Shown: piece by piece, positions 41,320-62,029 of the stretch
Layout: each line of letters opens with the position of its first letter
Numbering within the stretch: the stretch's first letter is position 1
Assembly: GCF_036345995.1 (NCBI RefSeq)
Contig: NZ_CP107796.1
Coordinates: 2,666,001-2,730,000 of the forward strand
Length of the DNA: 64,000 bases
DNA from: Streptomyces sp. NBC_00557
Lineage (GTDB): Bacteria > Actinomycetota > Actinomycetes > Streptomycetales > Streptomycetaceae
Direction: 5' to 3'
Notes under the pieces: model-generated
What the model was told of the DNA's origin: nothing
Databases searched by the model: none
Seen by the model: the letters and a program-made list of their open reading frames with translations, nothing else
Made by a program: the position numbers and the translations under genes

Positions 41320-41769
41320 GGGACAAGCGTAGGGGAGGGAGGGGGTGGGCAGGCGAGGCGGTTCTCACTGTGGGACGGCGGTGGTGCCGACGGGTGAGTA
41401 GGGAGCCGACGGGGAGTAGGGAGCCGACGGGGAGTGGGGAAACCGACACCCGGGACCGATGCACCACGGCCGACCGGCCCCAGCGGGACCAGCGGGACCA
41501 GCGGGACGAGCGGGACCAGCGGGACCAGCGGGACCAGCGGGACGAGCGGGACCAGCGGGACCAGCGGGACCAGCGGGACAACGAGAACAGCGGGACCAGC
41601 GGGACAACGAGAACAGCGGGACCAGCGGGACAACGAGAACAGCGGACCACGGGACCAGAGGGACAAGCGGGACGAGCGGACCAGGGAACGAATGACACCC
41701 TGCAGCGAATGGCACCCCGGAGCGAATGGGACCGACCCACCCGAATGGGACCGACCCCACCCACGGACC
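41320..41769. other. 450-base intergenic region made largely of tandem repeats
   Basis: Lies between the ArgRS-like gene and a response-regulator gene, both on the minus strand. No gene is supported. The ArgRS-proximal part (about 41384-41450) has three copies of an 18-base GGGAGCCGACGGGGAGTA-like unit; then follows the 9-bp array listed separately; then degenerate GCGAATGG(G/C)ACC units to 41765. Apparent open frames here (GPAG, GTSG or VPL repeats) only reflect the repeat. Confidence 0.7.
41484..41690. repeat. 9-bp tandem array with 36-bp and 26-bp higher-order units
   Basis: Ten contiguous 9-mers CGGGACCAG from 41484 to 41573, with units 3 and 7 carrying the variant CGGGACGAG, so a 36-base higher order is visible. 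From about 41577 a 26-base unit starting GACAACGAGAACAG repeats at 41577, 41603 and 41629, then decays to about 41690. The period shift from 9 to 26 shows that the tract is not kept in a reading frame. Confidence 0.92.
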
Positions 41770-42306: not shown

Positions 42307-42424
42307 ACGTCGAGAGTAGGTCCGGACCGGCCACCGCGTCCGGGTTTTCCCCACTTCCACCCCGTACAGGGGACCCACTCCGGCACAGAGTGGACCCGCC
42401 CCACCCGGCACCCCGGGAAACGGA

Positions 42425-42455
42425 TTCCTGATCACCCCGCCGGACCTGCTAGTGT
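42425..42455 (+). promoter_or_regulatory. candidate tRNA-Arg promoter
   Basis: TTCCTG (42425-42430) and TAGTGT (42450-42455), spaced by 19 bases, about 40 bases before the tRNA. It approximates the Streptomyces housekeeping consensus and points at the tRNA gene. Confidence 0.45.
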
Positions 42456-42495
42456 TCTACCCGTCGCCGCGAGCGAGAAGCTCCGCAGCCGACAC

Positions 42496-42567
42496 GCCCC
42501 CGTAGCTCAGGGGATAGAGCAACGGCCTCCGGAGCCGTGTGCGCAGGTTCGAATCCTGCCGGGGGCA
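42496..42567 (+). tRNA. tRNA-Arg (anticodon CCG)
   Basis: A 72-base tRNA. The acceptor stem pairs GCCCCCG (42496-42502) with CGGGGGC (42560-42566), discriminator A at 42567. D arm GTAGCTCAGGGGATAGAGC, anticodon stem ACGGC/GCCGT around the loop CTCCGGA with anticodon CCG (reads CGG), and T arm GCAGGTTCGAATCCTGC are all regular. CCA is not encoded. The 3' half is duplicated at 47568-47634 and 58447-58491, marking it as an integration site. Confidence 0.97.
42527..42567 (+). other. attachment site, tRNA-borne copy (att1)
   Basis: The 41-base 3' part of tRNA-Arg, from CTCCGG to the last base, is the segment that recurs at the two other att copies. Integration by a tyrosine recombinase at the tRNA 3' end would restore the gene, as is usual for actinomycete integrative elements. 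Confidence 0.85.
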
Positions 42568-42575
42568 CTCCGGTT

Positions 42576-42615
42576 AAGCTCCTGACCAGCAGAAATGCTG
42601 GTCAGGAGCTTTTTT
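42576..42615 (+). terminator. intrinsic terminator after tRNA-Arg
   Basis: A perfect 16-bp stem (42576-42591 with 42596-42611), a GAAA tetraloop, and a run of T's to 42615. A textbook terminator eight bases past the tRNA. Confidence 0.96.
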
Positions 42616-42965
42616 GCAGGCCGAAGGTGCAGGCCCTTTCCGCGTTTGATGGCAGCCATCGGGTCGTCTCTGACCTGGTCCTTTGTGACCACTGGCGACC
42701 GCAGCCTTCTTGGAGCTCTGTAGAGGACCATTTCTCGCGGAACATACGCGGGACCGCGAGACTCCTTCGCGGGGGGCCTCACCGCATCAGCCTGCCTGCC
42801 CGCGGTCCAGGACTGCCATCAGCACACGGAGCAGCAAGCCGTTGCACTTTGCCCGACGCCGCCGTCGGCAGAGCAGCGCCCCTCGCGCTCTCACACCAGC
42901 CGTTGCTGGCTCTCTACGGCGCGTCGGCCGAGGCCACGGTCTTCACTAACCCTGATTCCGTTCTG

Positions 42966-43290
42966 GTGCAGGCGGGCCAATGCGGGAGGTCCTCGCCGAG
43001 GAACTGATCGCCCGGATGGGTGTCGAGGGCGAGCGTCAGAGGCAGGGCTCGCGCCGAGGCCGAGCACCTGATCGCCGGCGCGGATGCCAACAAGCGCAGA
43101 CTGCTCGCTCGTGGCAAAACGACCGATGCGCGGGCCGGCGTACTGAATGAGCACCGGCTCGCAGTGTGGTGGGAGGCAGAGCCCTTCGCCTTCCGTTACG
43201 CGACGACCGGCGCGGAGACGTACTTCGTCAACCGGCTCGACCCCGACGCCCGCTCCCGCGAGGTCATTTCCTTCCACCGCCCCGAGAGCG
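42966..43290 (+). pseudogene. frameshifted remnant of an unknown coding sequence
   Basis: Two stretches with coding character lie in different frames: one reads MREVLAEELIARMGVEGER from about 42980, the other AEAEHLIAGADANKRR ... HRLAVWWEAEPFAFRYATTG ... ETYFVNRLDPDARSREV from about 43045 to 43270. Together they look like the start of one protein broken by a frameshift near 43035 and cut off where the convergent helicase gene begins. I do not recognise the family. The rest of 42616-43345 shows no gene. Confidence 0.45.
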
Positions 43291-43345
43291 GTCGCGGGCT
43301 GGGTGCGGCGCGCGGCCCAGTCCCCCGCCGCGCCGGCCTTCGAGC

Positions 43346-46300
43346 TCAGCGACGACGCTCCGACCCGAAGCGCACCGGCGCTTCCCACGCCCGGGAGCCC
43401 TGCCGTGCCGGGCACGCCCGGTTGAAACACCTCCAGTACCAGGAGCCGTCGCCTCGACGCCGCAGGTCCACGTCGTCTCCCTTGCACGCACCGCACCGCG
43501 GCGGTTTCGCGAAGTCCTCCGCGTGTTCGTGGGTGAGGATCTTGCGGGCGAAGTGGCCGCCCTTGATGGTCAGCATCACCTCGCGGGAGCGGCTCTGCGA
43601 GAGGGTGTTGAGGCTGCCCAGCAGAACCGTGTGCTCGTCAATGACGACGATCTTCTGGTGCATGACGTTGACGGAGACGACGGTGGGAACCACGGCCCGC
43701 AGCTGCTTGACCAGCTGGGCCTGCTTCTTCTGGCCCGTGTCGTAGGGGTCGCGGACGAAGACCGTCACGCGCACTCCACGGCGTACCGCGTCCTCCAGCA
43801 CCGGGAGCAGGCTGAGCAGGCGTTTCGCGGTCCAGGGGGACCAGATCCACAGGGATGTGCGGGCCTCGGCCAAGCGGTCGGCGAACGTTTCGTAGAAGGA
43901 GATCTCGTCGTGGACGTCGGTGACTTCCACGTGGCGCGAGAGTACGTCCGCGAGGCGGGTGCTGAACGGGCCGAGAGGGATGTCGGGCTGTCCGCCGGGG
44001 GCGACGAGCTGGGTCGCCGGGACCCACTTGGCACGCCGGTCGCGGATGAGTGCGGCGAGCTTGCCCATGGCCGTCTGTTCGCCCGCGGCGAGGATGCGGG
44101 TGCGGCTTCCGAGGACGTACAGCCTGGTCTGTACCCGAGTGACGGCGACGTTGAAGAGCCGTACGCCGTTGCGGGCCCAGGTCGTCGCCCCGGGGGCCCG
44201 TGTTGCCTGGGACATCCAGAGGCCGTCGCCGTAGTCGTCCTCCACGGTGTCGAAGACGACCACCGGGAACTCACGACCCTGGAAGCGGTGTGCCGTGCCG
44301 ACTTCGGCGACCTGGCCGTCAGTCGACTCGTGGTCGCGGAGTGCCTCCAGGGTGGCTTCCGCCTGTACCGAGTAGGGCGTGACGACTCCGGCCGTCTCGC
44401 CGTCCTCGAGGTGCAGGTCGATCAATGCGCGCGCCAGCAGGGCGCCGGCCGGCCACCATCCCTTGCGGCGGCCCGTGCGGTGGGCCTGGGCGAGGCTCTG
44501 GAGTCCGTCGGTATCGATGATCACGATTTCAGCGTCGTCGGGTGCGCGGCGCGCCGCGCGTTGTTCGACGCCGGGGCCGGGTTTCAGCACGCCGTCGTAC
44601 GCGAGGGCGTTCGCAAGGCTCATGACGTCGTGGCCGAAGCGGTGCTGGACGTCCAGGACGACACAGCCGGGGTGGTTGACGGCAGCGGCCGGTGACTCGA
44701 TGCCGAAGTGTTCGTAGACCTCACGCAAGATCCAGCGGGCGACATCCGGCCGTTTCCTGGCGTCGAGTTTCGGCAGGACAGGCCCGAGTTGCATGAAGTC
44801 TCCGAGCAGCACGGCCGTGGTCTTCCCCTTGCCCACCGCGAGGAGGACTTCGGGCAGGGTCGCGGCTCCGGCCTCATCGACCAGGACGACGTCGTACTCG
44901 CCCTCGAACACCGCTCTGGTGGTGCGGAAGCGGGCGAGCGTGGTGGCGACGAGCTTCGCACCCCGGATGATCTCGCCCTGGGCGTCACGGGCGAGTTTGT
45001 CGTACTCCTCCTGGAGTTCGCGGTGGCGGCGTTCCAGGGCCGGACGGCTCTCCTGGTCCGCGACGACTTGAGGCTTGAGGGCGGTCGCCAGAGCGTGACG
45101 CCTGGGATGGCCGAGTCGGTCGGCCGCCGCGACGCGGTCCTCTGCCATTTGCGAGAGGCCGAGTTCCCTGACGAGGGGATCCAGACGGGCGGCGGTGGTC
45201 CTGTGGGTTCTCCGGGCCTGTTCCAGGTCGTTCTCCACCCTGCGCAGGGTCGTCTGCCGGAGCGTGATCTCCTGCTTGCTGAAGGGGATCCGCGCGCGGA
45301 TCTCCGCCAGTCGTCCTGTGATGCCTGCCTCCTGGCGCGCGAGGACGGAACGGGCGTCCGCCGCTTTCTTCTCGGCTTCCCGGGCCGCGGTTCGTGCCGT
45401 CTCCAGACTGGCCCGCGCCGTTTCCCTGTCCCGCCTAGTCCGGCGCTTCGCGAAGCCTTTCAGCTGCTCAAGTCCGTCCAGAAGCTCCTGAGCCGCAGCC
45501 CGCTCGCTGTCAGCCAGAAAGGCCTTCGCCTCCAGATCGGTGACCACCGACCGCAGTCGGGCGAGGTGTGCCTGGTGCTCGTCGTGGGACTTCCAGTCGG
45601 CTTGGGCCTGTTCCGTCGCCTTCACTGCTTCGACCGCGGCCTGGTACGCCTCTTCCAACTGCGTGACCGTCTCTCTTGCTGCCTGGGAGTCGCGGTGCGC
45701 CTCGACGCGAGCTCTCTTCAGGGCCTCAGGTGTACGCGCGGGATCGTCGAGCCTCGTGCGGTCCGCCGCGTACGCCACTGGATCGAAGTCGGTCAGGCTG
45801 CGCTCCAGCTCTTCCAACTGACGTGCTCGCTCCCGGGCTTCGACCAATTGAGCGGCGACCGCGCGACGCCGGGCATCGGCTTCGGCCAGCCGTTCACGCA
45901 CCATCAGGGTGAGACAGACGCTCGCGTCCTCCGCAACCTCCCGTAGGTGGGGCGGCCCCACTCGGACGATCTCCCCGTCTGCGTGCCGCCGCTCCTTCAC
46001 CACGCCCCACAGGGCGTTGTCCACGGCGATATTGGTGGCCGAGACCAGCAGAACCCGCTTGCCCCGCGCGATCAGGTCACCGATGGCCCGCTTGAGGACC
46101 GTGGTCTTGCCGGTGCCCGGCGGGCCCCAGACCAGCCACAGGCCCTCACCCGTGCAAGCGCGGTACGCCTGCTCCTGGCCCGACAGGAGCAGGCCCTGCG
46201 GCGGCCCGGTCGGTGCGAGCCGACCCGTGCCCGCCTCGCCGCGGGCCATGAGGTGAGCCAGAGGGGCGTCGGTGAGCGCGGCCATGCCCTCCCATAACGC

Positions 46301-46642
46301 CTTGACGAGGAAGCCAGTGGGCTGCGGTTTCATCCACAGATGGGGATCAATCGGGTCCGCGAACTCGGGAACGCGCACCCGCAAGGCGGTACCGTCCTTG
46401 AACACGTCGAGGACGGAGTGGCCGGCATCGACACCGCTCTCGTCGGGCCCGGCCAGTCTCAGGCTGTCGCCCTGAAGCTGATCCGTCCCGAAGTCGGAGC
46501 CACGCACGTCGACGACGTACTCGCCGGGCTTTCGGCCCCGTACCGCCCGCCCCAGGGGGCGCCACCGTGGCTCGCGCGCTGGTACGCCCTCGTGGGCCAC
46601 CCAGGCATCCAACGCCGAGACGACTTCTTCCTGCCAGCCCAC
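43346..46642 (-). CDS. SF1 (Upf1/Dna2-like) helicase fused to a phospholipase D nuclease; Mokosh type II-like defence protein
   Basis: A 1098-residue protein. An N-terminal domain (1-150) leads to a superfamily 1B helicase: Q-motif region, P-loop GPPGTGKTT (173-181), a coiled-coil insertion (about 250-490), motif II VLVDEAGAA (587-595), motif III LLGDFMQLGPV, VQHRFG, and motif V/VI AHRFQGRE (785-792) and NVAVTRVQTRLYV. The C-terminal part (about 905-1045) is a PLD-type nuclease with one HxK motif (HQKIVVIDEHTVLLGSLN, H995 and K997), followed by a Cys4 zinc ribbon (C1050, C1053, C1072, C1077). A single chain with COG1112-type helicase plus PLD nuclease is the architecture of MkoC, Mokosh type II antiphage. 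Start is GTG. The match is by architecture only. Confidence 0.82.
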   Translation of the reverse strand: MGWQEEVVSALDAWVAHEGVPAREPRWRPLGRAVRGRKPGEYVVDVRGSDFGTDQLQGDSLRLAGPDESGVDAGHSVLDVFKDGTALRVRVPEFADPIDPHLWMKPQPTGFLVKALWEGMAALTDAPLAHLMARGEAGTGRLAPTGPPQGLLLSGQEQAYRACTGEGLWLVWGPPGTGKTTVLKRAIGDLIARGKRVLLVSATNIAVDNALWGVVKERRHADGEIVRVGPPHLREVAEDASVCLTLMVRERLAEADARRRAVAAQLVEARERARQLEELERSLTDFDPVAYAADRTRLDDPARTPEALKRARVEAHRDSQAARETVTQLEEAYQAAVEAVKATEQAQADWKSHDEHQAHLARLRSVVTDLEAKAFLADSERAAAQELLDGLEQLKGFAKRRTRRDRETARASLETARTAAREAEKKAADARSVLARQEAGITGRLAEIRARIPFSKQEITLRQTTLRRVENDLEQARRTHRTTAARLDPLVRELGLSQMAEDRVAAADRLGHPRRHALATALKPQVVADQESRPALERRHRELQEEYDKLARDAQGEIIRGAKLVATTLARFRTTRAVFEGEYDVVLVDEAGAATLPEVLLAVGKGKTTAVLLGDFMQLGPVLPKLDARKRPDVARWILREVYEHFGIESPAAAVNHPGCVVLDVQHRFGHDVMSLANALAYDGVLKPGPGVEQRAARRAPDDAEIVIIDTDGLQSLAQAHRTGRRKGWWPAGALLARALIDLHLEDGETAGVVTPYSVQAEATLEALRDHESTDGQVAEVGTAHRFQGREFPVVVFDTVEDDYGDGLWMSQATRAPGATTWARNGVRLFNVAVTRVQTRLYVLGSRTRILAAGEQTAMGKLAALIRDRRAKWVPATQLVAPGGQPDIPLGPFSTRLADVLSRHVEVTDVHDEISFYETFADRLAEARTSLWIWSPWTAKRLLSLLPVLEDAVRRGVRVTVFVRDPYDTGQKKQAQLVKQLRAVVPTVVSVNVMHQKIVVIDEHTVLLGSLNTLSQSRSREVMLTIKGGHFARKILTHEHAEDFAKPPRCGACKGDDVDLRRRGDGSWYWRCFNRACPARQGSRAWEAPVRFGSERRR

Positions 46643-46781
46643 GTTCCCCCGCTACGACCGCGCCGCCTGGATCTTGATCCGTAGTACCAGGGCAGCCCAG
46701 CGCTGACCACCACCAATCTGGCCAAGGTGACCGGCGGACGACTCGTTACACAGCGGTAGCATCCGCAGTAGCATGAAGAGC

Positions 46782-47045
46782 ATGAGCGAGCCTACCCAGA
46801 AGTACTCGATCACGATGCCCCGGGACATCGCCGAAGCCGCCCGCGCCCGTAGTGGCCCCTCCGGCCTGTCCGCCTACGTCGCCGCCGCCGTCGCCCGCCA
46901 GATCGAGCGCGACAACCTCAACGAACTCATCCAGGTCGCCGAGGCACAGCACGGCCCCATCACCGATGATGAGGTGCAGGCCCTGCGCGACCAGCTCCAC
47001 CAGGCACGCGCACAGCAGACCGGCGATGCGGCGAGCGCGGCGTGA
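46782..47045 (+). CDS. antitoxin, ribbon-helix-helix-like
   Basis: An 87-residue protein. The N-terminal half (KYSITMPRDIAEAARARSGPSGLSAYVAAAVARQIERD) has the beta strand plus two helices of a ribbon-helix-helix DNA-binding antitoxin; the C-terminal half is acidic/Gln-rich and would wrap the toxin. It is followed by a PIN-domain gene with a GTGA overlap, as in VapBC-type modules. Start at the second ATG (MSEPTQK) is chosen; ATG nine bases earlier is an alternative. Such operons are usually autoregulated at the promoter. Confidence 0.85.
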   Translation: MSEPTQKYSITMPRDIAEAARARSGPSGLSAYVAAAVARQIERDNLNELIQVAEAQHGPITDDEVQALRDQLHQARAQQTGDAASAA

Positions 47046-47455
47046 CACGGTCCCCTGCCGCCCCGGGCGGCACACTGGTACTCGACAGCGAGGGGCTGGC
47101 CAAGGCCGTGCTGCGCGACCGCACAGTCACCGCCTGGCTCGCCCTGGCGCGCGCCGATGACCTGCGTGTGATCACGTCAGCGGCCACTCTGGTGGAAGTC
47201 GTCCACCCACGCATCAACCGCCCGGCCCTGGAGTGGACGCTCTCCCGCCTCATCGTGGAGCCGGTCACCGACGCAGTCGCACGCCACGCCGCCGCCCTGC
47301 TCACCGATGCCAGCCTGCACGGCCACAAGTACGCCATCGACGCCATGCTCAGCGCAACCGCCCTTGCCGCCCCTGGGCCCGTCACCGTGCTCACCTCCGA
47401 CCCGGAAGATCTCACGGCCCTATGCGGAACCCGCGCCACCGTCATCAAGGTCTGA
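47042..47455 (+). CDS. PIN-domain toxin (VapC-like ribonuclease)
   Basis: A 137-residue PIN domain. The metal-binding acidic residues are in place: LVLDSEGL, TLVEVVH, KYAIDAML and SDPEDL. The family cleaves tRNA or rRNA loops when freed from the antitoxin. The GTG start overlaps the antitoxin stop (GTGA). The module ends 113 bases before the second att copy, so it is the last cargo of the first island segment and may help keep it in the chromosome. Confidence 0.88.
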   Translation: MTRSPAAPGGTLVLDSEGLAKAVLRDRTVTAWLALARADDLRVITSAATLVEVVHPRINRPALEWTLSRLIVEPVTDAVARHAAALLTDASLHGHKYAIDAMLSATALAAPGPVTVLTSDPEDLTALCGTRATVIKV

Positions 47456-47567
47456 CGCCCAAAATTGGAATGAACCGAATATTTCGCCATCGGGGGACAT
47501 ACGCGGGATCGCTCTCCTGACGCTGATCAGACAACACTCTGACCTTCGAGAACAACCGGGACTGGTT

Positions 47568-47634
47568 CGGCCTCCGGAGCCGTGTATGCAGGTTCGAGGA
47601 GCCGTGTATGCAGGTTCGAATCCTGCCGGGGGCA
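47568..47634 (+). other. second attachment-site copy with a 22-bp internal duplication (att2)
   Basis: Repeats the tRNA-Arg 3' half from CGGCCTCCGG to the last base. It contains two substitutions against the tRNA (GTGTATG for GTGTGCG region) and a perfect tandem duplication of GGAGCCGTGTATGCAGGTTCGA (47576-47597 and 47598-47619). No 5' half of a tRNA is present, so this is not a tRNA gene. Confidence 0.9.
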
Positions 47635-47800
47635 CCCAGCATGAGGTGCCCAAAGACCCCGTCACCAGCGGAAACGCTGAGGCCGGGGTCTTCGCGTATG
47701 TGCAGGCGTATGCCGCGGCGAGCGGCCCTAGGACGGGGCCTGTGGACTGTTCGTGGACAGGATCTTGGGGCATCCTCCCTGGTCAGTCCCGGCAAACGGA
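47635..47800. repeat. tRNA-distal flank, copy A
   Basis: Follows att2 and matches the sequence after att3: CCCAGCATGAGGTGC, then a folded segment (outer stem 47653-47661/47684-47692, inner CAGCG-GAAA-CGCTG), then GCGTATGTGCAGGCGTATGCCGC. From 47734 to 47771 it also matches copy B at 52058-52095. The stem-loop could act as a terminator. No gene is seen in 47456-47871. Confidence 0.85.
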
Positions 47801-47871
47801 AAGGCCCCTGGGCAGTTCCAGGGCCGGAGAGACCGACTGCCGGCCCAGTTGGCCATGGCGACTGTTGAGAC

Positions 47872-49905
47872 TCAGCCCGTCGCCGTCTTTTCCTTGGTGG
47901 GGGCTCGGCGGGGTGTCACACGATCCAAATGGACCACCACGCCGGCGTAGAAGCGGTGCACCGCTTCGTCGACGCTCCGGATAAAGCCGGACTCGGCGTT
48001 GCCCCGGCCGCTTCCCATCCCCTTGAACAATGACAAGCGGAAGCCCGTGATGTGGGTGCTGCTGTCCTTCGGAAGCAGGTCCGCCGGCTCAGGACGGAGC
48101 CGCTCCAGGGTGCCCCGGGGGCCACCAGTGCCCCCTTCGACCAGGGTCTCGATGTGGAGGTCCGCCGGCGCTTCGGCCAAGGTCCGGACGAGTCGTTTGG
48201 CCCAGGACAACGGGTAGCCCTGCTCCGGTGCCGAGATCTCAATGGAGGTGCGCAGTTTGCCGGTGCGGAGGTCAGCGGTGACCGCCAGAACGCCGGGCGT
48301 TCCCTCGATGCGCAGTTCCGCCTGCAGCAGCCCGTCGAGGCAAAGCTGATCGGCGAGACCGCTCCGGCGTGCTGCCGGATCCGTTCCCCTCTTGGCTCGC
48401 TGGACGGGCAGTACTTTCTGTCCCAGTTCACCACCCAACCCGAGACATACCTGGCGGATCAGCCGCTCCCAGCTCTCGACAACCTCCAGTGCGCGTGTAT
48501 CTCCCTGGCACAGGGTCTCGTCGTCGATTCCGTTGCGTACAGGCACCCAGGCCGGGCCCATGTTCTGGAAGCCATGGCAGCCGGAGTTCTCGTGCTGCAG
48601 GTAGTGGAGCAGTTCCTGGAGGAGCCACGCGTGCGCCCCGCTGCTGACACCCTCGTGCCGGATCAGCATCTGCGCCTGGTGCGCGACTTCCGCCCACGAA
48701 AGGTGCCGGAGCGCCACTTTGTGCTTGCGCCGTCCGTCGATCTTGACGTCGACGAGCGGGCTGCCCTCCAACGCGACATCGTTCGACAGCGTGATCACGG
48801 CCTCGTAGCCACGGCGCGCGGCGATGTCCATGTACGCCTGTACTTGATCGGGCTTGAGGGCGTTGCCGTTGGTCTTCGTCTCGACCAGCGCCGTCCACAG
48901 CTTGCCGGCCCGCTCGACGCGGATCACCCCGTCAGGGCGTCGCGGCGTATCACCGTGCGGCAGGGTGACTTCGGTGTAGGTCTCCATGCGGCCTGCCGGC
49001 GCCCCGAAGCCGGCGGTGAGTCGCCTGCCGAATTCAGGAACCTGTGCCATCACCGACAGCAGCACGGAGGTCGCCCGCATTTCACGATCCCGGTCACTCT
49101 TGAGCGCAGACACCGGGAACAGCCGGGCCACCCTCCAAGATTCATTCTCAGCCAGGGTCTTTTTGACCGCCTTGGGAAGAGTGACCTTCTTCTTCGCCGT
49201 ACGCGGTCGAGCAGCCGGCTTCTGCGGCTCGTCGCCGTCTTCGGGTCGACGAGGAGATGGAACGACTCCCAGCGATCCTTGTGATATCGGCTCGTCGGCC
49301 GAGGCTGCCGGACCCGTCATGTCCGCCTGATCGCCGCTCGCGCCGGCCTGCGCTTCCACTGCCGTCGCATCGTCATCGATGTCGACGCCGAAGTCCGTTG
49401 CCAGACCGGCGAGACCAGTGTCGTAGCCCTGGCCCACAGCGCGAAATTTCCACTCTTGTCCGCGCCGATACAGCTCACCAAAGATGATCGCACTCACCGA
49501 GTCGACGTCATTGATGGCAAAGCGAAGAAGATCATCACCGGCCCCATCAGCCAACGAGAGCCTGACGTCCTCAAGTTCCCCGAAGCGCGCTCCGTCGTAA
49601 CGGCTGGCAGCCACGACTATCCGGTCGACGTCAGCCGATACCGCAGTCAAGTCGAAGCTGATCCGGTCCTCGTTCCCGTCCTCCGTCGGCGTCTTGCCCA
49701 GAAGCTGCACGCTTCCGTCGGCCGCGACTGGGTTGTTGTAGAAGTAGAAGTCGGTGTCACTGCGGACCTTGCCGTTCACGTCCAGCAACAGGACGGAGAC
49801 GTCCGCGTCACCCTCGCCAGTCGAGCTCCCCCAGCCCAAACTGACGATCACAGACCCAACGTTCTCACTCAGGGCTGCCAGAGCCACATTCGAGCCTTTG
49901 CTCAT
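47872..49905 (-). CDS. TerD-domain protein fused to a PD-(D/E)XK nuclease-like domain
   Basis: A 677-residue protein. Residues 1-175 are a TerD stress domain, starting MSKGSNVALAAL with VSLGWGSS, DADVSVLLLDVNGKVRSD, FYNNP and FAINDVDSVSAIIFGELYRR; this family binds calcium. A disordered linker (about 176-250, with basic RPRTAKKK) joins it to a region that has the layout of a restriction-endonuclease fold: D325 (RRPDGVIRV), E342 and K344 (TALVETKTNG) and Q354 (KPDQVQAY). The remaining 300 residues are unassigned. Start: ATG at 49905 gives the TerD N-terminus; a frame extends 97 codons upstream without family residues. TerD genes normally sit in ter operons; this one stands alone in a defence-rich island. 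Confidence 0.85.
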   Translation of the reverse strand: MSKGSNVALAALSENVGSVIVSLGWGSSTGEGDADVSVLLLDVNGKVRSDTDFYFYNNPVAADGSVQLLGKTPTEDGNEDRISFDLTAVSADVDRIVVAASRYDGARFGELEDVRLSLADGAGDDLLRFAINDVDSVSAIIFGELYRRGQEWKFRAVGQGYDTGLAGLATDFGVDIDDDATAVEAQAGASGDQADMTGPAASADEPISQGSLGVVPSPRRPEDGDEPQKPAARPRTAKKKVTLPKAVKKTLAENESWRVARLFPVSALKSDRDREMRATSVLLSVMAQVPEFGRRLTAGFGAPAGRMETYTEVTLPHGDTPRRPDGVIRVERAGKLWTALVETKTNGNALKPDQVQAYMDIAARRGYEAVITLSNDVALEGSPLVDVKIDGRRKHKVALRHLSWAEVAHQAQMLIRHEGVSSGAHAWLLQELLHYLQHENSGCHGFQNMGPAWVPVRNGIDDETLCQGDTRALEVVESWERLIRQVCLGLGGELGQKVLPVQRAKRGTDPAARRSGLADQLCLDGLLQAELRIEGTPGVLAVTADLRTGKLRTSIEISAPEQGYPLSWAKRLVRTLAEAPADLHIETLVEGGTGGPRGTLERLRPEPADLLPKDSSTHITGFRLSLFKGMGSGRGNAESGFIRSVDEAVHRFYAGVVVHLDRVTPRRAPTKEKTATG

Positions 49906-50540
49906 TTCATGCACAGCGCCCCCCAATTGGCACAAGTCGGGCATAAAGCCTGCCCTGACTGCCTGACATACGACGCAGTGTGACGCGCCGCACACGGGTA
50001 ACTGTAGTGCCCACAGAACTGACCGCGGGGACAAGCCAGGATTTCGGGCGCCATCCCCCGCACCCGGCTGAAGCGCGGGCCCCCGGCTACCCGAAGGCCC
50101 GAGCCTGCCCTCGCTCGCGATCACTCGTACTCGCGCAAGAGCTCTTCGATCTTGCGTTCGGCGATCTCCCGTCGTCCATCGATGCTCCAGCAGCACCCGA
50201 TCCCGCTCAAGCGTCGCCCCCTCTCCGGCGGTCAGACCGTGATGTATCTCACGAAGCGGTCAGATCAGACCTATCTCATAAAACCGGTATGCCGAACATC
50301 GGACCGGTCGCGACTGCGCGGGAGACAGCCCGACACGCGAAGGCCTCGCTGCCACCTGGACTGAAGCCGTGCGACAGCCAGGTCGACATGCGCGCCCTCG
50401 ACGGGCCGCCAAGGCCGCGCGGGACCCACTCGTCATGGACATAGGGCGTCGAATCGCCCGAAGCAGTGACAAGCCACACAGAGGCAATCCCTTGCCTCAC
50501 GGGCGGCCTCGAGGTGGGATCGGCAGTCAACGGCCGAGCC
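49906..50540. other. region without an intact gene
   Basis: Apart from the integrase fossil at 50121-50186, I see no supported coding region between the TerD-fusion gene and the protease. The TerD-fusion promoter should lie near 49910-50000. Confidence 0.5.
50121..50186 (-). pseudogene. fossil of an integrase C-terminus
   Basis: Read on the minus strand, 21 codons and a TGA give SIDGRREIAERKIEEL then LREYE. This matches the C-terminus of the integrase relic at 52963-53691 (CIDGRQDIANRKIEEL then LREYE) in frame at 17 of 21 positions. Nothing upstream of it continues as an integrase. It is a remnant of a second integrase gene. Confidence 0.88.
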
Positions 50541-50552
50541 TGGTCTAGTCCA
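50541..50552. promoter_or_regulatory. dre-like (DasR) site before the S53 protease
   Basis: TGGTCTAGTCCA differs from the DasR core TGGTCTAGACCA at one base. It ends 15 bases before the protease start codon, overlapping its leader. A DasR site here would tie the protease to aminosugar supply. Confidence 0.5.
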
Positions 50553-50567
50553 CTACGAGGAGCATCT

Positions 50568-51941
50568 ATGCGCAGGATTCATGCGCGGCGGCGCACTGCG
50601 GTCGCCGCAGCCTGGATCACCAGTCTCACCAGTTTCGCAGCGATAGCAGGGCTTTTGTCTGGTTCCGCCGCCGTCGCCGCACCCGTGCGACCGGCGCAAG
50701 AAGTCAAGCCCGTGCCGGCGGCCGGACAGCAGTCGAAGATCGCGCCCGGCAGCCTGATGACCACTGCGCAGTGCCGGGCGGTGTGGGGGTTCGACTGCTA
50801 CAACGCGCTCCAGTACCGCCAGGCGTACAACCTGAACCCGCTGTACAAGGCAGGAGTGACCGGCAAGGGGCGCACGATCGTGATCGTGGATCCGTTCGGC
50901 TCGCCGACCATCCAGAAGGACCTGGACGTCTACAGCGCCCGGTTCGGCATGAAGAGCACCCATGTCGACGTGGTCAAGTGGGGCAACGTCCCGCGCTTCA
51001 ACCCCAGCGACCCCGACCAGCTCGGCTGGGCCGGGGAGACCACCCTCGACGTGGAGATGGCGCATGCCGTCGCCCCGGACGCGCACATCGTCCTGGCGGA
51101 GACCGGGGTCGGCCGGATCGGGGACGGCACCACCGGCCTGAAAGAGGTCATGGACGCCGAGAAGTCGCTCATCGACCGCGGCGTGGGCGATGTGATCAGC
51201 CAGAGCTGGGGCGTGGCGGAGAACAACTTCCCCGGCTTCAGCAAGGGTGACTTCTCCAGCATCCAGAACCTGCGCTACGCCTACAAGGACGCGGCCAAGC
51301 ACGGTGTGACCGTCACCGACGCTTCCGGCGACAGCGGACCCACCGACACCACGTCGAACGGCCAGACCACCTATCCGTACAGGGTCAACGCCTGGCCGAC
51401 CGACGACCCCCTGGTGGTCTCGGTCGGCGGCACCCAGCTGCACCTGGACGCCAACGGCAACCGCACCGCGCCGGACAGCGTCTACAACGACCACGGCGCC
51501 AGCGGCGGCGGCGAGTCCCACGTCTTCGCCCGTCCCTCATACCAGAACGGGGTGGCCGGCAATCACCGCAGCACCCCGGACGTCTCCATGTCCGCCGCGC
51601 TGAAGGGCGGCGGATGGGTGTACTCCAGCTACGACCCGAAGAAGGTCGGGTGGGAGGTCTACGTCGGCACCAGCGAGGCCAGCCCGCTCTTCGCAGGAAT
51701 CGTGGCCCTGGCCGACCAGGTCGCCGGGCACCGGCTGGGAGACATCCACAAGGCGCTGTACTCGCTGTACGCGAAGTCCTCGTCGACCCCGTCCACCGGG
51801 ATCGTGGACGTGAAGGACGGCACGAACAACAGCTACGCGGGCGTCACCGGCTACACCGCGGTGAAGGGCTACGACATGGCGACCGGTGTCGGAACGATCG
51901 ACGCGGCCCGCTTCGTCCCGGCCCTCGCCAAGGCGGGCTGA
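50568..51941 (+). CDS. secreted S53 (sedolisin/kumamolisin-like) serine-carboxyl protease
   Basis: A 457-residue exported protease. An Arg-rich signal peptide (about 1-38) precedes a short 45-residue spacer and the subtilisin-fold domain. Catalytic residues: E157 and D161 in GETTLDVEMAHAVAPDA, the oxyanion aspartate D255 (TDASGDSG), and S369 in YVGTSEASP. The C-terminus has the calcium-site pattern (DVKDGTNNSY, GYDMATGVGTID). It lacks the 180-residue propeptide of most kumamolisins, so activation must differ. The start ATG has a GAGGAG site. It is more GC-rich and core-like than its island neighbours. Confidence 0.93.
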   Translation: MRRIHARRRTAVAAAWITSLTSFAAIAGLLSGSAAVAAPVRPAQEVKPVPAAGQQSKIAPGSLMTTAQCRAVWGFDCYNALQYRQAYNLNPLYKAGVTGKGRTIVIVDPFGSPTIQKDLDVYSARFGMKSTHVDVVKWGNVPRFNPSDPDQLGWAGETTLDVEMAHAVAPDAHIVLAETGVGRIGDGTTGLKEVMDAEKSLIDRGVGDVISQSWGVAENNFPGFSKGDFSSIQNLRYAYKDAAKHGVTVTDASGDSGPTDTTSNGQTTYPYRVNAWPTDDPLVVSVGGTQLHLDANGNRTAPDSVYNDHGASGGGESHVFARPSYQNGVAGNHRSTPDVSMSAALKGGGWVYSSYDPKKVGWEVYVGTSEASPLFAGIVALADQVAGHRLGDIHKALYSLYAKSSSTPSTGIVDVKDGTNNSYAGVTGYTAVKGYDMATGVGTIDAARFVPALAKAG

Positions 51942-52296
51942 CCGCAACCTGTCTCCGAGGCGCGGGCGCCCGGCGTACCACTGCCGGGCCCCGCGCCGAG
52001 ACGGCGGAGACGGCGGCTCGTATACGCAGACGTACGCCGCCGGAAGTGGCCGTGCGACGGGGCCTGTGGACTGTTCATGGACAGGATCTTGGGGCGTCTG
52101 CCCAGGTCAGACCCAACGAACGAGAGTACCTCTGGACACCGAGGAGTCGGGCAGCAGGCATCACGGCGAGAGAGCGGCCGACCGCACCATGTAGGTAGCG
52201 GCTCCCATCAGCAATAGCCGCGATCGGACCGAACCATGCAGCTCCGTTAGCTACTGTCTGCACATCGGGGAGCTCAGTGAGTGCCAGGGGGTGGGG
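51942..52296. repeat. tRNA-distal flank, copy B, and surroundings
   Basis: No gene. Positions about 52021-52110 match copy A closely: TATACGCAGACGTACGCCGC then CGGGGCCTGTGGACTGTTC at 52058 and GGACAGGATCTTGGGGC to 52095. The tRNA core itself and the stem-loop are missing, so this is a truncated right junction of an element. The remainder shows nothing. Confidence 0.8.
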
Positions 52297-52905
52297 ATGT
52301 CCGGTGCGACACTTTCTTTGATCGTTGCAATCGTTGGCGTTGGTGGCACGCTGGCCTCAGCAGTGATCACTCAAGTTCTTGCTCAGCGAGCTGAGTCGCA
52401 GAGGCTGGAGCGGGAGGAGCGGGTTCGTCTCGCGGAGCAGCGAGCTTCTGAAGATCAGCGCAAGGTCGATCAGCTCCGGGATTGCTACGTCCAGTTGAAC
52501 GCCCGTGATCGTCACTATCGAGACGCAATGCTGGCGTACGCCTACGCGCTCAAATCGGGATCCGCCGAGGCGGAGGCAACGGAAGTAAGTAGCGCGCGGC
52601 GTGCTCAAAGGGACGCTCGTGCTGAAGCTCAGCTGATTGCCAGCGACGCAGTGCTCGAGATCGAAAGTCGGGTCAATGCCCAGCTTACGATCGCCTACAG
52701 ACGCCTGATGGAAGTAGCGGGCGAGCCGGACTCATCCACTCGTGAGGCCAGGCTCAACCAGGTCATTGACCTTTTGGACTCCATCATTTCGCAGCAGGGG
52801 CATGTGCGAGCGCTCATGCGCCTTGAGGTGCGCGCCACTGAAGAGCTTCCGGACTGGTACAACCCGGAGATCGGGCTGCCACAGCACCAGTTGGCCGACC
52901 ACTGA
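52297..52905 (+). CDS. membrane-anchored coiled-coil protein of unknown function
   Basis: A 202-residue protein with a single N-terminal membrane helix (LSLIVAIVGVGGTLASAVITQVLA, about 6-29) and then a long charged helix, rich in R, E, Q and A (about 30-75), and further helices. The soluble part resembles the cytoplasmic helical proteins often found next to integrases in Streptomyces islands, but no named family is recognised. ATG at 52297 follows an AGGGGGTGGGG tract; a GTG six bases upstream is possible. The gene lies just before the convergent integrase relic. Confidence 0.75.
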   Translation: MSGATLSLIVAIVGVGGTLASAVITQVLAQRAESQRLEREERVRLAEQRASEDQRKVDQLRDCYVQLNARDRHYRDAMLAYAYALKSGSAEAEATEVSSARRAQRDARAEAQLIASDAVLEIESRVNAQLTIAYRRLMEVAGEPDSSTREARLNQVIDLLDSIISQQGHVRALMRLEVRATEELPDWYNPEIGLPQHQLADH

Positions 52906-52962
52906 TCGCTGAAGGGGCAAGCCTCCAGATGGCGCGGGAACTTGCCCCTGGTAGATCGGCGA

Positions 52963-53691
52963 TCACTCGTACTCACGCAACAGCTCCTCGATCTTCCGGT
53001 TGGCGATGTCCTGTCGTCCGTCGATGCACTTGGCGTAGCGGCTCAGCAGGACCTCAACACTGTTGCCCGCGCGTTCGGCCACCTCGGTGGGATCCACCCC
53101 GGAGTTGAGCCAGGTTGACGGGGCCGAGTGCCGGAGATCGTACGGCCGGGCGGCGAGCGGCGAGCCGACCGCGGTCGGCGGGAGAGCCAGCGCACGGGCT
53201 TCCTGCCAGAGCGGTAGTACGTTTGAGGAGCCGACCACTCCCCCGCGCTCGTTGGTGAACAACCGCCCGTCCTCGGCGGTGCCGAAGGTGTCGAGGTGCT
53301 GCCGGAGGATGGCGACGAGCTGAGGCGGGATCGGTACGAGCCGGACCTCCTCCGCCGGCCGGTTCTTCAGGCCCCGGTCGTCGTGGGTCTCACCGGAGTC
53401 CGTCCCCTGCTTGCCGACTCTCGGGCGCGTCCGGTTCAGCAGTGCCGTCCCCCAGCCGACCTCGGGCAGCTTCAGGTCTGCACTGGTGAGGCCGACGGCC
53501 TCAGCCGGGCGTAGGGCGCCGTAGTACATACATGCGAACAGGCCGACGAGACGGCGACCACGCGCGCGGCCATACCCGCCGACGTACGAATCCTCAGAGG
53601 GTAACCCGTCCAGGTAGGCCCCAGCCGCGATTCGCTCACGCAACGCCTGAGAGATCACCTGATAGGTCCCGCGTGGGCTGGGGCCCGGCAC
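52963..53691 (-). pseudogene. chimeric open frame: GntR-regulator start joined to a truncated tyrosine integrase
   Basis: A 242-residue frame. GTG at 53691 with a near-perfect AAGGAGG site begins MPGPSPRGTYQVISQALRER and continues IAAGAYLDGLPSE, which is the start of a GntR winged helix of the KorSA type used by actinomycete integrative elements. At about residue 34 it switches to an integrase catalytic domain (SYVGG ... LFACMYYGALRPAEA with R61, RPYDLRHS with R187, SRYAKCIDG with Y219). The arm and core-binding domains are missing, and the usual AGHS is AGNS (N210). A deletion between two genes best explains it; it should not recombine DNA. Confidence 0.85.
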
Positions 53692-54269
53692 GCATTCCTC
53701 CTTCGGACACCGTCGCGTCCAAGCTTCCCGCGCGCACCCGTGTTGCTGGGCGTGTCCTTGCTGTCCGACTGTCCGGTTACGCCTCTCACCTGCGCAAACG
53801 GCCGGACAGCCCAAAGGCCCGCTGTCCGGGGTGTCCGGTCACAGATGGCTGTAACAGCCGGGCGCTCCGGGTGTTACAGCCCGTGGCGAAGCCGACCTCT
53901 CAATGGGCGGAGGAGCCGGAGGCGACTTCTGATCTGATCTGCCTCGCGAGGGAGTGACAGAAGGGCGTCGAACATCCCTGCCTGCTCAAGGTCGGTGCAC
54001 GGTACGGGGCTGCCGGTACGGGCCTGCCGGCGGTGCGAGCTGGACACTCAGCCGAGCACAGTGGAACGCCCTCGTACGCAGCTCAGCGCCCTGTCGACAG
54101 AGTCCGTCCTCGCGGTTACGTACAGGTAGAAGCAAGGGGGGCGCACGCGTCTTCCATCGTGCTTCACCTTCCACTCACGAAGTGCAACACGATCTCTTGT
54201 CGCCGATCACAATCGGCCATATGGTGACGGGCCATCAACGAGTTCCACATGCAAGTAGTTGGGGGGCCG
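53692..54269. promoter_or_regulatory. regulatory-type region with repeated TGTCCGG motifs and a long palindrome
   Basis: No gene in 578 bases. TGTCCG(G/A) occurs at 53762, 53770, 53823 and 53832 with an inverted copy CCGGACA at 53802. A perfect inverted repeat GGCTGTAACA-N15-TGTTACAGCC spans 53847-53881. The cluster lies 70-190 bases before the GntR-type start, where a KorSA-like repressor or replication-type protein of the lost element would bind. Confidence 0.6.
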
Positions 54270-57200
54270 ATGTCCAGCATGGGGAGCTTCGAGTCTATTA
54301 TTCGCGAAGCGATAGGTGTTTTCGGGGAAGAATTAAAACCTAAACTCAAGGCTTCAACCGGCACGGAAGATCAGCTTCGAGGGCCATTTGAACGCCTCAT
54401 CACAAGTGCTGTCGGAGGGCTCGGGCTGAAATCGGTCCTGATCGGTGAAGTCCCTCTCGTTGACATCGGCGCCCGCCCAGACTACGCCGTGCATGTCGCC
54501 GACGCACTAGTTGGCCACGTCGAATTAAAGCGACCGGGCGTCGGTGCGGACCCGGACTCATTCACTGGCCGGAACGCGAGCCAATGGCAGAAACTCAAGC
54601 TTTTGCCGAACGTGCTCTACACCGATGGCAACGAATGGGGTCTTTATCGCAACGGCCACCGTGTCGGTGAAATTGCCCGGATGAACCTGTCGGTCAAGAC
54701 CGCGGGAAGCAAACTGGCACCAGCCGACGACGGCGTTTCCCGGGTGCTATTCGACTTCCTGACCTGGAAGCCGCAGCCGCCACGAACCATCACGCAGTTG
54801 GTTCGAGCGGTGGCTGGCCTCTGCAGGCTGCTCTGTTCTGAAGTCCGGGAAGCATTGCGCCTAGAAAAGTCCGGGAAGCGTCTCGAGACACTTACAGTCC
54901 TCAAGGAGGACTGGGGCAAGCTCCTTTTCCCGGAACAAACCGACGAAGAGTTCGCTGATCAGTACGCACAGACCGTCGTCTTCGCTCTGCTACTTGCCCG
55001 TGTGGAGGGCATTGTCTTCGAACACGACACCATGCACGGGATCGCCACAAAGCTAGGCAAGAAGCATTCCCTCATGGGCAAGGCTTTGGATGTGTTGACG
55101 GACGACTCCCTCACTGGCCTTTCGACGACCCTCGACACACTGATACGCGTTATCGGTACGGTTGATTGGGAACGCCTCGACGACGGCTCCGGCGATGCAT
55201 ATCTGCGCCTGTACGAGGACTTTCTTCAGGTTTACGACCCAAAACTGCGCGAACGCACCGGGTCGTACTACACCCCAAACGGGGTCGTCGCGGCAATGGT
55301 CAGGTTCACTGAGGATGTGATACGGCAGCGCCTCGGAATAGCCAATGGCTTTGCGTCACCGCAGGTTGTAGTCGTCGACCCGGCGATGGGAACAGGAACA
55401 TTCCTTCTCAACATCTTGGACCGCGCCGCCAAATCGATCCATGAAGACGAGGGGCCGGGTGCCGTGGGACCACGCCTTCGCGAGATGACGGGCCAGAGGC
55501 TTATTGGCTTCGAGATGCAGACTGGCCCTTATGCAGTCGCCGAATTGCGCATGCATGCCAGACTCAGGGACCTGAAGTCTTCCGCTCCAGCGCACGGCCT
55601 GCGGTTGTACGTAACCAACACTCTCGACAACCCAAAAGACGAATTCAATTGGCTTCCCGGTACGTTCAAGGCAATCGCAGAGTCGCGAAAGCAAGCCAAC
55701 AAGGTTAAGCGCGACGAGAGGGTCATGGTCGTTCTGGGTAACCCACCCTACGACGCTGTGAAGCACGGGGCAGGAAAATGGATCGAGCTCGGCGACCCCG
55801 ATTTGGGAGTTCGGGCCCCTCTCGCGAATTTCCGACTCCCAGGCAACGGCAAGTACGAGTCAAAGATGTCGAACTTGTACGTCTACTTCTGGAACTGGGC
55901 CACATGGAAGGTCTTTGAATGCCACGATGATTCTCCATTCGGCGTCATCACCTTCATCACCCCGCGCGCGTGGATCAAGGGCGCAGGATTCGCCGGTATG
56001 CGCAAGTACCTACGATCGGCAGCAGACGAAGGCTGGATCATCGATCTGTCGCCTGAGGGCCAACGGCCAGACGGAGCTACGAGGATCTTCCCTGAGGTCG
56101 CTCAGGAACTATGCATCGCAGTCTTTGTGCGGTGGAGCCGCCCCGAAGATCAACCGAAGTCCGTGAAGCCACCTGCAGTTGTGAGGCACATCTCCCTCGC
56201 CGGCCACCGCCTTCAGAAAATACAGGCGTTGACGGACCTCAGCCTCGGCGATAGCCGGTGGAGAACCTGCGCTTCCGGTGAAACCGCTCCGTTCCTTCCT
56301 CCAGGCAGCGATCTGTGGGAATCAAGTCCCCGACTTAGCGATCTCATGCCATGGTCATCCAGAGGGGTGACGCCAGGTCGTGTGTGGGTGTATGCGCCGG
56401 ACCGGGCGACTTTGGAGCGCCGCTGGGAGCTTTTCGTCGCGGCTGACGAAGCCGACAAGAGAGAGATGTTCGGAGAAGCTCGCGACCGCAATCTACATAC
56501 TACGGTGGGCTCGCTTCCGGGCATCCAAGACCGAGGGGCCGTGCCCCTCGCTCAAGAACGCCGAGGCATGTTGGATCCCGTGCGTGTTGGCTACCGAGCC
56601 TTCGACCGGCAGTGGCTGATCCCAGACAATCGCTTGATGGTCGTGCCCCGGCCCGACCTGTGGCGCGTACGTGGCGCATCACAACTCTTCGTTGTGGAGC
56701 AAAATGCTCACGCGATCACAAACGGACCCGGCCTTGTCTTTAGTGCCTTCATCCCAGACATGCACTACTTTAATGGGCGCAGCGGGGCGGTCCGGCCTCT
56801 CTATCGGGACGCAGCCGGGCAAACTGCCAATGTCACCCCCGAACTGCTTCCGGTCGTATCTCAGCGCCTTGGCGTGTCAGTAAGCGCGCAAGAACTCATC
56901 GCCTATATAGCAGCCGTGACCTCACACCCCGCCTACACCGAGCAATTCGTGGAGGACTTGGAAATGCCCGGCGCGCGCATACCATTTACGGCTGCCCCGG
57001 AGCTCTGGGACCGGGCCGTTGAAATTGGGCGGCGGGTGCTGTGGCTGCATACTTTCGGTGAGCGTTTTGCCGATGCCAGCGCCGGGAGGCATGGGGCGCC
57101 TCCGAGCCCCCGCCTCCCGGCCGAACGGCGCCCGGTCAGTCTGGTGGCAATCCCCGACACTACAGATGGCATGCCGACGTCCATGCGGTATGACGAGGCC

Positions 57201-57488
57201 TCGAAGCAGCTATGGATAGGAGCTGGCTGCGTTGGACCAGTAGAGCCAGAAGTGCGCCGGTACTCGGTGTCGGGCATGAATGTGCTGGACAAGTGGTTCG
57301 GCTACCGCCGTAAGGAGCCTGCAGGCAAGCGCCTGCGCTCGCTTGACCACGAGTGCTCGCCTACCTGGCTCCCTGACTGGACTTCTGAGCTGCTCGAACT
57401 CCTCAACGTGTTGGCCTGTTGGTGGAACTTGAGCCAGAGCAGCGCCAACTGCTGGACGAAGTCTGCCAGGGACCGCGCATTACGGTGA
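54270..57488 (+). CDS. type IIG/ISP-like restriction enzyme: nuclease plus N6-adenine methyltransferase, frameshifted 3' end
   Basis: A 1072-residue protein. The N-terminal nuclease has a PD-(D/E)XK core (D71 in RPDYAVHV, E85 and K87 in HVELKRPG). The methyltransferase has motif I DPAMGTGTF (370-378) and motif IV NPPY (491-494); FTPRAWIKG-like and DLSPEGQRPDG parts follow, then a putative recognition region to about 1060. There is no helicase, unlike true type ISP. GC is lower than the core and two TTA codons lie at 54333 and 54525. The last 24 codons are out of register: shifting the frame at about 57412 gives LLVELEPEQRQLLDEVCQG and a plausible end at 57574. Start ATG has a GGGGGG site. Confidence 0.85.
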   Translation: MSSMGSFESIIREAIGVFGEELKPKLKASTGTEDQLRGPFERLITSAVGGLGLKSVLIGEVPLVDIGARPDYAVHVADALVGHVELKRPGVGADPDSFTGRNASQWQKLKLLPNVLYTDGNEWGLYRNGHRVGEIARMNLSVKTAGSKLAPADDGVSRVLFDFLTWKPQPPRTITQLVRAVAGLCRLLCSEVREALRLEKSGKRLETLTVLKEDWGKLLFPEQTDEEFADQYAQTVVFALLLARVEGIVFEHDTMHGIATKLGKKHSLMGKALDVLTDDSLTGLSTTLDTLIRVIGTVDWERLDDGSGDAYLRLYEDFLQVYDPKLRERTGSYYTPNGVVAAMVRFTEDVIRQRLGIANGFASPQVVVVDPAMGTGTFLLNILDRAAKSIHEDEGPGAVGPRLREMTGQRLIGFEMQTGPYAVAELRMHARLRDLKSSAPAHGLRLYVTNTLDNPKDEFNWLPGTFKAIAESRKQANKVKRDERVMVVLGNPPYDAVKHGAGKWIELGDPDLGVRAPLANFRLPGNGKYESKMSNLYVYFWNWATWKVFECHDDSPFGVITFITPRAWIKGAGFAGMRKYLRSAADEGWIIDLSPEGQRPDGATRIFPEVAQELCIAVFVRWSRPEDQPKSVKPPAVVRHISLAGHRLQKIQALTDLSLGDSRWRTCASGETAPFLPPGSDLWESSPRLSDLMPWSSRGVTPGRVWVYAPDRATLERRWELFVAADEADKREMFGEARDRNLHTTVGSLPGIQDRGAVPLAQERRGMLDPVRVGYRAFDRQWLIPDNRLMVVPRPDLWRVRGASQLFVVEQNAHAITNGPGLVFSAFIPDMHYFNGRSGAVRPLYRDAAGQTANVTPELLPVVSQRLGVSVSAQELIAYIAAVTSHPAYTEQFVEDLEMPGARIPFTAAPELWDRAVEIGRRVLWLHTFGERFADASAGRHGAPPSPRLPAERRPVSLVAIPDTTDGMPTSMRYDEASKQLWIGAGCVGPVEPEVRRYSVSGMNVLDKWFGYRRKEPAGKRLRSLDHECSPTWLPDWTSELLELLNVLACWWNLSQSSANCWTKSARDRALR

Positions 57489-58291: not shown

Positions 58292-58446
58292 CTTCGCAGG
58301 CGAGCAGCAGGTGAGTCAGGCACCGGTCCAAGGCCCATGCTTGGCGACGCGTTCGACACACCTCCGACACACTGCCCGTCTCCGTGGTACCCCAGGTCTC
58401 CTTTTTGCAGGTCAGTCGAGGTATGCGACGGGATCGCTACATCCAC
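58292..58446. other. intergenic, island right end
   Basis: No gene. Short region between the unknown gene and the third att copy; I see no clear terminator or promoter. Confidence 0.4.
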
Positions 58447-58491
58447 TCCGGAGCCGTCTGCGCAGGTTCGAATCCTGCCGGCCGGGGGCAC
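58447..58491 (+). other. third attachment-site copy (att3)
   Basis: Matches the tRNA-Arg 3' part from CTCCGGAGCCGT to the final GGGGGCA, with one substitution and an extra GGCC before the last G-run (GCCGGCCGGGGGCA). Followed at once by the tRNA-distal flank. Best read as the island's right end. Confidence 0.9.
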
Positions 58492-58886
58492 CCAGCATGA
58501 GGTGCGCAAAGACCCCGTCACCAGCGGAAACGCTGAGGCCGCGGTCTTGGCGTATGTGCAGGCGTATGCCGCCCGAAGCGGCCGTACGTCGGGGCCTCTT
58601 GACGGGATCTTGGAGTATGGCTGCAGGTGTGGGCCAGGGAAAGGCGAGGCCCGCACCGACGCCAAGGGTCACCACCCAGCACGGATCGCCTGGCCGCAGG
58701 GGCTGCCGACGCGCACCGGAGTTGGCCACTTTCCCGCGCCGATGCACAAGGGCAGGCTCCGTCCACCCCACAACGGGCCTGCCCTTGCTCGGGAGAGGGA
58801 GACTTTCCCGAGTGTCCGACGCGGCGCGCGGCGCCGGACCACTTGTGGTGGCGGGGCAGCGGCGACACATCGGACTCAACGGGCGA
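58492..58886. repeat. tRNA-distal flank, copy C (chromosomal right border)
   Basis: Starts CCCAGCATGAGGTGCGCAAAGACCC and keeps the folded segment of copy A (left arm 58509-58517, right arm 58540-58548 with one mismatch; inner CAGCG-GAAA-CGCTG). It parallels copy A to about 58615 and then differs. It is the presumed original sequence beyond the tRNA. No gene is seen to 58886. Confidence 0.75.
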
Positions 58887-61933: not shown

Positions 61934-62029
61934 GAGCCGCACCCTTCCTACGCCGATGGCCGATCGCAGAGATCAGGTGATCACGGCGATTTCACTGGTT
62001 TGCATGGGATTGTCTGCGATTGTCATCGT

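Follow-up and report, generated by a model that had tools for sequence, protein, structure and literature searches.

A TerD domain fused to a predicted PD-(D/E)XK-type nuclease module in a Streptomyces genomic island

Classical TerD proteins are short and usually encoded in ter operons. In the available portions of two papers (PMC7824862, PMC7159879), TerD is proposed to bind ligands, nucleotide-like signals of Ter systems possibly among them, and Ter-dependent stress and anti-phage systems comprising TerB, TerC, TerD, TelA, and PRTases are described. A second point of reference is provided by the CARF-nuclease proteins, ligand-gated effectors in which, according to the available part of PMC3710099, a sensor domain is joined to a nuclease, and which also occur as stand-alone genes. 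The gene analyzed here, from Streptomyces sp. NBC_00557, encodes a TerD domain fused to a nuclease-like module. It lies in a stretch of 64,000 nucleotides (contig NZ_CP107796.1, positions 2,666,001 to 2,730,000), hereafter called the window.

A sequence-only reading had assigned the region 47872..49905 to a 677-residue protein with TerD as its N-terminus. Position and length proved correct, and translation placed the gene on the minus strand: the ATG start codon is at 49905, and the plus-strand reading of 47872-49905 is interrupted by stops. The protein (P0001) consists of TerD, a linker, a PD-(D/E)XK-like nuclease, and a C-terminal region. The TerD domain (residues 1-172; 49390..49905, minus strand) was borne out by a Pfam PF02342 match with an E-value of 5.8e-49 and a score of 166.5 bits (cut-off 25.3), the alignment spanning the whole TerD model, and by phmmer matches to PDB entries 3ibz (2.2e-37) and 2kxt (3.1e-34). 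It thus shares a full-length domain with the TerD family (PF02342; PDB 3ibz, 2kxt/2kxv). Its conserved acidic positions align to those of 2kxt/3ibz, and some of them are putative Ca2+ ligands. The residues D33, D35, D52, N57, and D80 were retained in 81/81 sequences (window plus 80 loci) and D50 in 80/81.

In genome_contigs, 244 relatives of the whole protein were found, and the best 80 of these 244 were retained (77 from Streptomyces and one each from Kitasatospora, Actinacidiphila, and Mangrovactinospora). Pairwise comparison of the window gene with each relative (80 pairs) gave median dN/dS values of 0.104 for TerD, 0.354 for the linker (residues 176-249; 49159..49380, minus strand), 0.061 for the predicted nuclease core (residues 250-415; 48661..49158, minus strand), and 0.114 for the C-terminal region (residues 416-677; 47875..48660, minus strand). 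Thus, TerD, core, and C-terminal region are under purifying selection, which is strongest in the core, whereas the linker is loosely constrained. The C-terminal region is kept together with the core in relatives that stand alone, and we refer to the conserved 428 residues after the linker (core plus C-terminal region) as the module. Two constrained domains separated by a fast-evolving linker make a sensor (TerD) that controls an effector a plausible reading of the sequence. The window's own genome contains 14 TerD matches. Five other long TerD proteins encoded there (L179-L183) were scanned, yielding one AIM24 match, one weak DUF2076 match, and a nuclease domain in 0/5. The AIM24 match marks a second, unlinked TerD fusion in this genome (TerD plus AIM24 domain; L183:1016-2833).

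The central part of the protein had been read as a restriction-endonuclease-like layout. Residues D325, E342, K344, and Q354 are indeed found at the positions given, in the order E312 ... P324-D325 ... E342-x-K344 ... Q354. The conservation of the D, E, and K residues among homologues, set beforehand as one test of this reading, was confirmed: E312, D325, E342, K344, Q354, Y358, and N375 were invariant in 81/81 close sequences (window plus 80 loci), and D325, E342, K344, and Q354 were invariant in 27/27 sequences of a mixed set, comprising 8 close and 19 distant relatives (32-44% identity over the module; L122 among these is interrupted by a stop). The homologues therefore carry the PD ... (D/E)-x-K site of the PD-(D/E)XK superfamily. 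In a 15-row module alignment, with identities to the window protein down to 32%, E312, P324-D325, E342, K344, and Q354 were again invariant. A crude propensity plot would roughly fit the order alpha-beta-beta-beta-alpha-beta of that superfamily.

Profile comparisons pointed in the same direction. The window protein gave a sub-threshold match to the Pfam family VRR_NUC (residues 322-370; E 0.15), with a score of 12.5-13.5 bits, below the Pfam cut-off of 23.8, which places it outside VRR-NUC (PF08774) as defined by Pfam. Scanned singly, 6/15 distant relatives matched VRR_NUC (best E 0.0025), 4/15 a phage Holliday-junction resolvase family (best E 0.0088), 3/15 Tox-REase-7 (best E 0.0016), and 1/15 each a PADLOC type II REase model (E 0.011) and NucS (E 0.14). 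The same scans also returned unrelated families, for example NIR_SIR_ferr (0.0067) and a glutamate-cysteine ligase model (0.0034). Because these match at similar E-values, the restriction-fold matches of single relatives count only jointly.

Alignment of profiles with hhalign gave 51.8% (E 1.5e-4) for the core against VRR_NUC, with PD, ExK, and Q in register, and 27.0% (E 6.7e-4) for the whole 428-residue module. The reference pair NucS-VRR_NUC reached 33.8% (E 4.3e-4), so that the core is nearer to VRR_NUC than is NucS, a known nuclease of that fold. NucS against the core gave 4.7%; in this pair, ExK and Q were in register. The VRR_NUC and NucS profiles were built from 7 proteins from genomes of the phylum and 15 rows, respectively, leaving out the misplaced rows L224 and L229 and one NucS row without E-x-K. 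Fifteen control families, run with an earlier alignment that still included the misplaced row L224 (VRR_NUC then 83.8%), gave 0.08-1.6%. The profile kinship to PD-(D/E)XK members thus exceeds that of unrelated controls. Profile searches found no nuclease among solved structures. Taken together, motif invariance and profile similarity to restriction-endonuclease-fold families support the nuclease-like domain, and assignment of the module to the PD-(D/E)XK-type nucleases is, at the level of sequence, well supported. A gene for a NucS-family endonuclease is also present elsewhere in the window (587-1453, plus strand; genome match 2667088-2667450).

The sequence-only reading had called the protein undescribed. 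This holds in so far as the window module has no Pfam match above cut-off and no NCBIfam match (E up to 10), and PADLOC (PADLOC-DB 2.0.0, E up to 0.01) returned 0 families for the protein, the best value being 0.011 in 1/15 relatives. Titles and abstract openings among the literature matches listed did not describe the fusion; the key Ter paper, Anantharaman et al. 2012, lay outside this scope. The gene itself, in contrast, is common, part of a broadly distributed though little-studied family of actinobacterial proteins, and in most of its plasmid records annotated as 'TerD family protein'. The fusion is widespread and not a local oddity: in the window's genus, 53/150 genomes matched the module, 43 of them through a single match that covers 400 or more of the 428 residues and 10 with pieces only. 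Relatives of the module that stand alone and lack TerD (~450-530 aa when counted from the first start codon) are found in further families of the class and phylum and are spread across Actinobacteriota. In one genus, the stand-alone form was present in 10/12 genomes.

Of 40 modules placed in a tree, those fused to TerD formed one clade of 15 (support 99/97), counting L186, in which Pfam detects TerD. As the fused rows form one clade, a single fusion event is likely among the sampled modules. The tree program warned that the long branch L115 joins the long branch of the Streptomyces group and that this placement may be spurious. A tree of the TerD domains neither supported nor contradicted a single clade of fused TerD. 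Twelve plasmid records matched the module (7 from Streptomyces, 5 from Rhodococcus), 11/12 covering at least 80% of it and 10/12 annotated as 'TerD family protein'. The gene is thus accessory and mobile, residing on an island here and also on plasmids elsewhere. A phage origin was considered and rejected: there was no match among 50,697 phage records, and in viral_contigs the full protein retrieved nothing, while the alignment of the distant relatives retrieved one relative.

The island spans 18 kb at an intact tRNA-Arg(CCG) gene (42496..42568, plus strand; ARAGORN), which serves as its integration site, and contains three att-like repeats. The second copy (47568..47741, plus strand) consists of the 3' end of the tRNA in two pieces (blastn, 93% and 95% to the tRNA) and a trailing repeat; its tRNA-like part covers 47568-47635, and we take an ARAGORN call at 47542-47636 to be a remnant. 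The third copy (58446..58597, plus strand) matches the tRNA over 36 bp (58446-58481) at 97% and the second copy over 149 bp at 89% (blastn). The region 42496-58597 looks like two islands in tandem, and extra partial tRNA-Arg(CCG) copies lie on the same contig in the genomes G657, G659, G660, and G662. The TerD-nuclease gene is located between the second and third copies. It shares this segment with a perhaps truncated tyrosine-recombinase (phage integrase) gene (52963..53814, minus strand; PF00589 E 4.7e-4, below the Pfam cut-off), relatives of which occur in other genomes on the island side of this tRNA (e.g., L171, L173, L174, L176), and with the gene for a type ISP / IIG restriction-modification enzyme (54249..57488, plus strand; PF18135 E 6.8e-76; PADLOC REase_MTase_IIG E 3.2e-279). 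Between the first two copies lie the genes for a 1098-aa SF1-type helicase with a C-terminal PLD-like domain (43346-46642, minus strand; Pfam, with partial PADLOC matches to MkoC/MkoA and DrmC), possibly a solitary defence protein, and for a PIN-like protein (47042-47455, plus strand; just under the Pfam cut-off). The latter overlaps a 90-aa gene, and the pair (46773-47455, plus strand) is perhaps VapBC-like. An ORF at 41434-42585 (plus strand) with a long Ser-Gly-Thr repeat and a collagen-repeat match below the Pfam cut-off may not be a gene.

In genome G663 (L178), a homologue of the right-flank gene 60887-61942 lies ~270 bp past the same tRNA, compared to 18.3 kb in the window, and a search for a TerD-nuclease match in that genome found none. 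The short distance and the missing match identify G663 as an empty site. In loci L004, L005, L006, L009, and L014, the gene likewise lies downstream of this tRNA, and the ORFs of the window's left flank are found on the opposite side; less than 300 bp separate tRNA-Arg(CCG) from the stop codon of the gene in L005. In L045, tRNA-Arg(CCG) is present and the flank genes are in a different order. Overall, a tRNA was contained in the locus sequence in 18/80 loci and tRNA-Arg(CCG) in 6/80.

The gene had been described as standing alone inside a defence-rich island. At the operon level, it does stand alone: no constant partner gene was seen in 81 loci (window plus 80), nor in 20 further, distant loci (covered up to within L138 and again from within L140), with neighbours called by a simple composition-based ORF caller. 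The search for TerD-nuclease fusions and their neighbours, which had been suggested as a check, revealed widespread fusions and neither a constant partner nor, in the part of the loci scanned for them, many defence neighbours. Two candidate partners were rejected. The commonest neighbour cluster (22/81 loci) seems to mirror one shared chromosomal site, and a PIN-domain gene is near the gene in only 6/81 loci, window included. The defence-rich setting is real in the window, where the restriction-modification, helicase-PLD, and PIN-like genes are close by. For the loci elsewhere, we scanned 120 neighbours, the first 120 of 188, all from L001-L045 (one per sequence cluster, 130-900 aa, up to three per locus). 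They contained 8 PADLOC families with one member each (E up to 1e-10; a descriptive tally), and their Pfam families were mixed among the matches listed (first 25 of 152). With so few PADLOC matches and such mixed families in this part of the loci, the setting in the window does not look typical. A ter operon (TerB/TerC/TelA or signal-making genes) was not found among the 10 neighbouring window proteins scanned, and 1 of the 120 neighbours elsewhere gave a vWA-TerF-like match (among the first 25 families listed).

Upstream regions of the relatives share a -10-like TACAGT followed by a GTG-rich operator; 43/80 align to the seed. In the window, the CRP-type operator (TGTGCGGCGCGTCACA; 49979..49994, minus strand) lies ~90 bp upstream of the start codon and closely follows the -10-like element, a position that would suit repression. 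The pattern GTG-N6-G-N-CAC, quoted in the available part of PMC10033298 as the strong consensus for Crp in S. coelicolor, occurred in 48/80 upstream regions, compared to a shuffled mean of 2.9 and to 19/650 random stretches; since related upstream regions are not independent, 48/80 overstates the weight of the operator. Without mismatch, the 16-base pattern TGTGCGRCRCGTCACA has one site in the genome, at the TerD-nuclease gene. With up to 2 mismatches, 20 sites were found versus 13 for the reversed control, so that only the exact site stands out. The regulator of the candidate operator may be a dedicated one and not Crp. In the 20 distant loci, a TGTGA-N6-TCACA site with one mismatch is confined to L131, ~140 bp before the ORF; in three others, GTG-N6-G-N-CAC lies more than 800 bp before the module. 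By eye, the operator in the rows of some relatives seems to belong to a longer inverted repeat that has TGTCGCA at its end. A DNA-damage promoter was rejected, as LexA, RecA-NDp, and SigR patterns were found in 0/80 upstream regions each.

We read the protein as a self-contained, switchable nuclease of the accessory genome, most likely serving, by DNA cutting, in protection against phages and mobile elements or in damage control under stress, and we put the probability of this reading at roughly 0.5. Defence is placed slightly ahead of stress damage control, because the gene is mobile between islands and plasmids and many genomes have only a broken copy or none. The role of defence effector, as originally proposed, is possible, and that of a stress or DNA-repair nuclease nearly as likely. 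The accessory and mobile nature of the gene fits defence, but there is no constant partner, few defence neighbours were found elsewhere, and the stand-alone relative is near-fixed in one genus (10/12 genomes), unlike a typical defence gene. The same near-fixation would fit the DNA-repair or stress-survival nuclease. In this alternative, the module would act on damaged or branched DNA and be linked through TerD to the general Ter/calcium stress response, and its mobility would be incidental. The nearest profiles, which include VRR_NUC and the Holliday-junction resolvase family, would suit such a function, and a CRP-type promoter site would suit developmental or nutritional control. The lack of LexA, RecA-NDp, and SigR-type sites in the 80 upstream regions argues against repair, as do the patchy occurrence of the gene, with pieces only in 10/150 genomes, and its location on islands and plasmids.

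Copies on 12 plasmid records, recurrence at one tRNA site, and the broken copies would also be expected of a selfish or addictive cargo nuclease that acts in plasmid or island maintenance or in the exclusion of competitors without benefit to the host. We consider this very unlikely, since no antitoxin-like constant partner was seen in 81 + 20 loci, purifying selection is strong, and ~20 loci share neighbours, which suggests a single chromosomal site kept over a long time. Least probable is that the PD-(D/E)XK-like fold serves in binding, being catalytically dead or not a nuclease at all: although the module has no known activity and profile searches found no solved relative, its canonical catalytic residues do not vary among the homologues, and no other part of the protein is as constrained as the core.

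For the switchable nuclease, we propose the following mechanism. The module would adopt the PD-(D/E)XK (restriction-endonuclease) fold, and its core would very probably cut DNA or RNA, with D325 and E342 holding a metal ion and K344 assisting. More tentatively, TerD might bind a stress cue (Ca2+ or a nucleotide-like signal of the kind suggested in Ter systems), and cue-bound TerD might thereby control the tethered nuclease; transcription might answer to a CRP-type regulator. In a bolder version, which we regard as unlikely, the module founds an unrecognised actinobacterial nuclease family in which, in one clade, TerD has become a ligand-gated switch, resulting in a one-gene immune effector under CRP control. 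If true, TerD would play the part that CARF or SAVED has elsewhere: at infection, it would detect Ca2+ or a nucleotide signal of the Ter type and free the nuclease.

What TerD domains sense and do is, in our judgement, a long-standing question. A single-gene fusion to a probable nuclease provides TerD with a readable output, which makes its ligand and effect directly testable. Moreover, the nuclease module is widespread, yet the window copy escapes the Pfam cut-offs, NCBIfam, and PADLOC. With classical TerD proteins, the protein shares the conserved acidic positions along with the domain, which is here fused to a nuclease-like module. With the Ter-dependent stress and anti-phage systems, as far as the cited portions describe them, it has the TerD domain in common, but no ter operon was seen around the gene. 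The VRR-NUC domain (PF08774) is matched by the core with PD, ExK, and Q in register, whereas the protein is longer and has a C-terminal region of its own. The CARF-nuclease effectors, as presented in the available part of their description, offer a working analogy, as here too a putative sensor domain is joined to a predicted nuclease whose relatives also occur as stand-alone genes; the sensor of the protein described here, however, would be TerD and not CARF.
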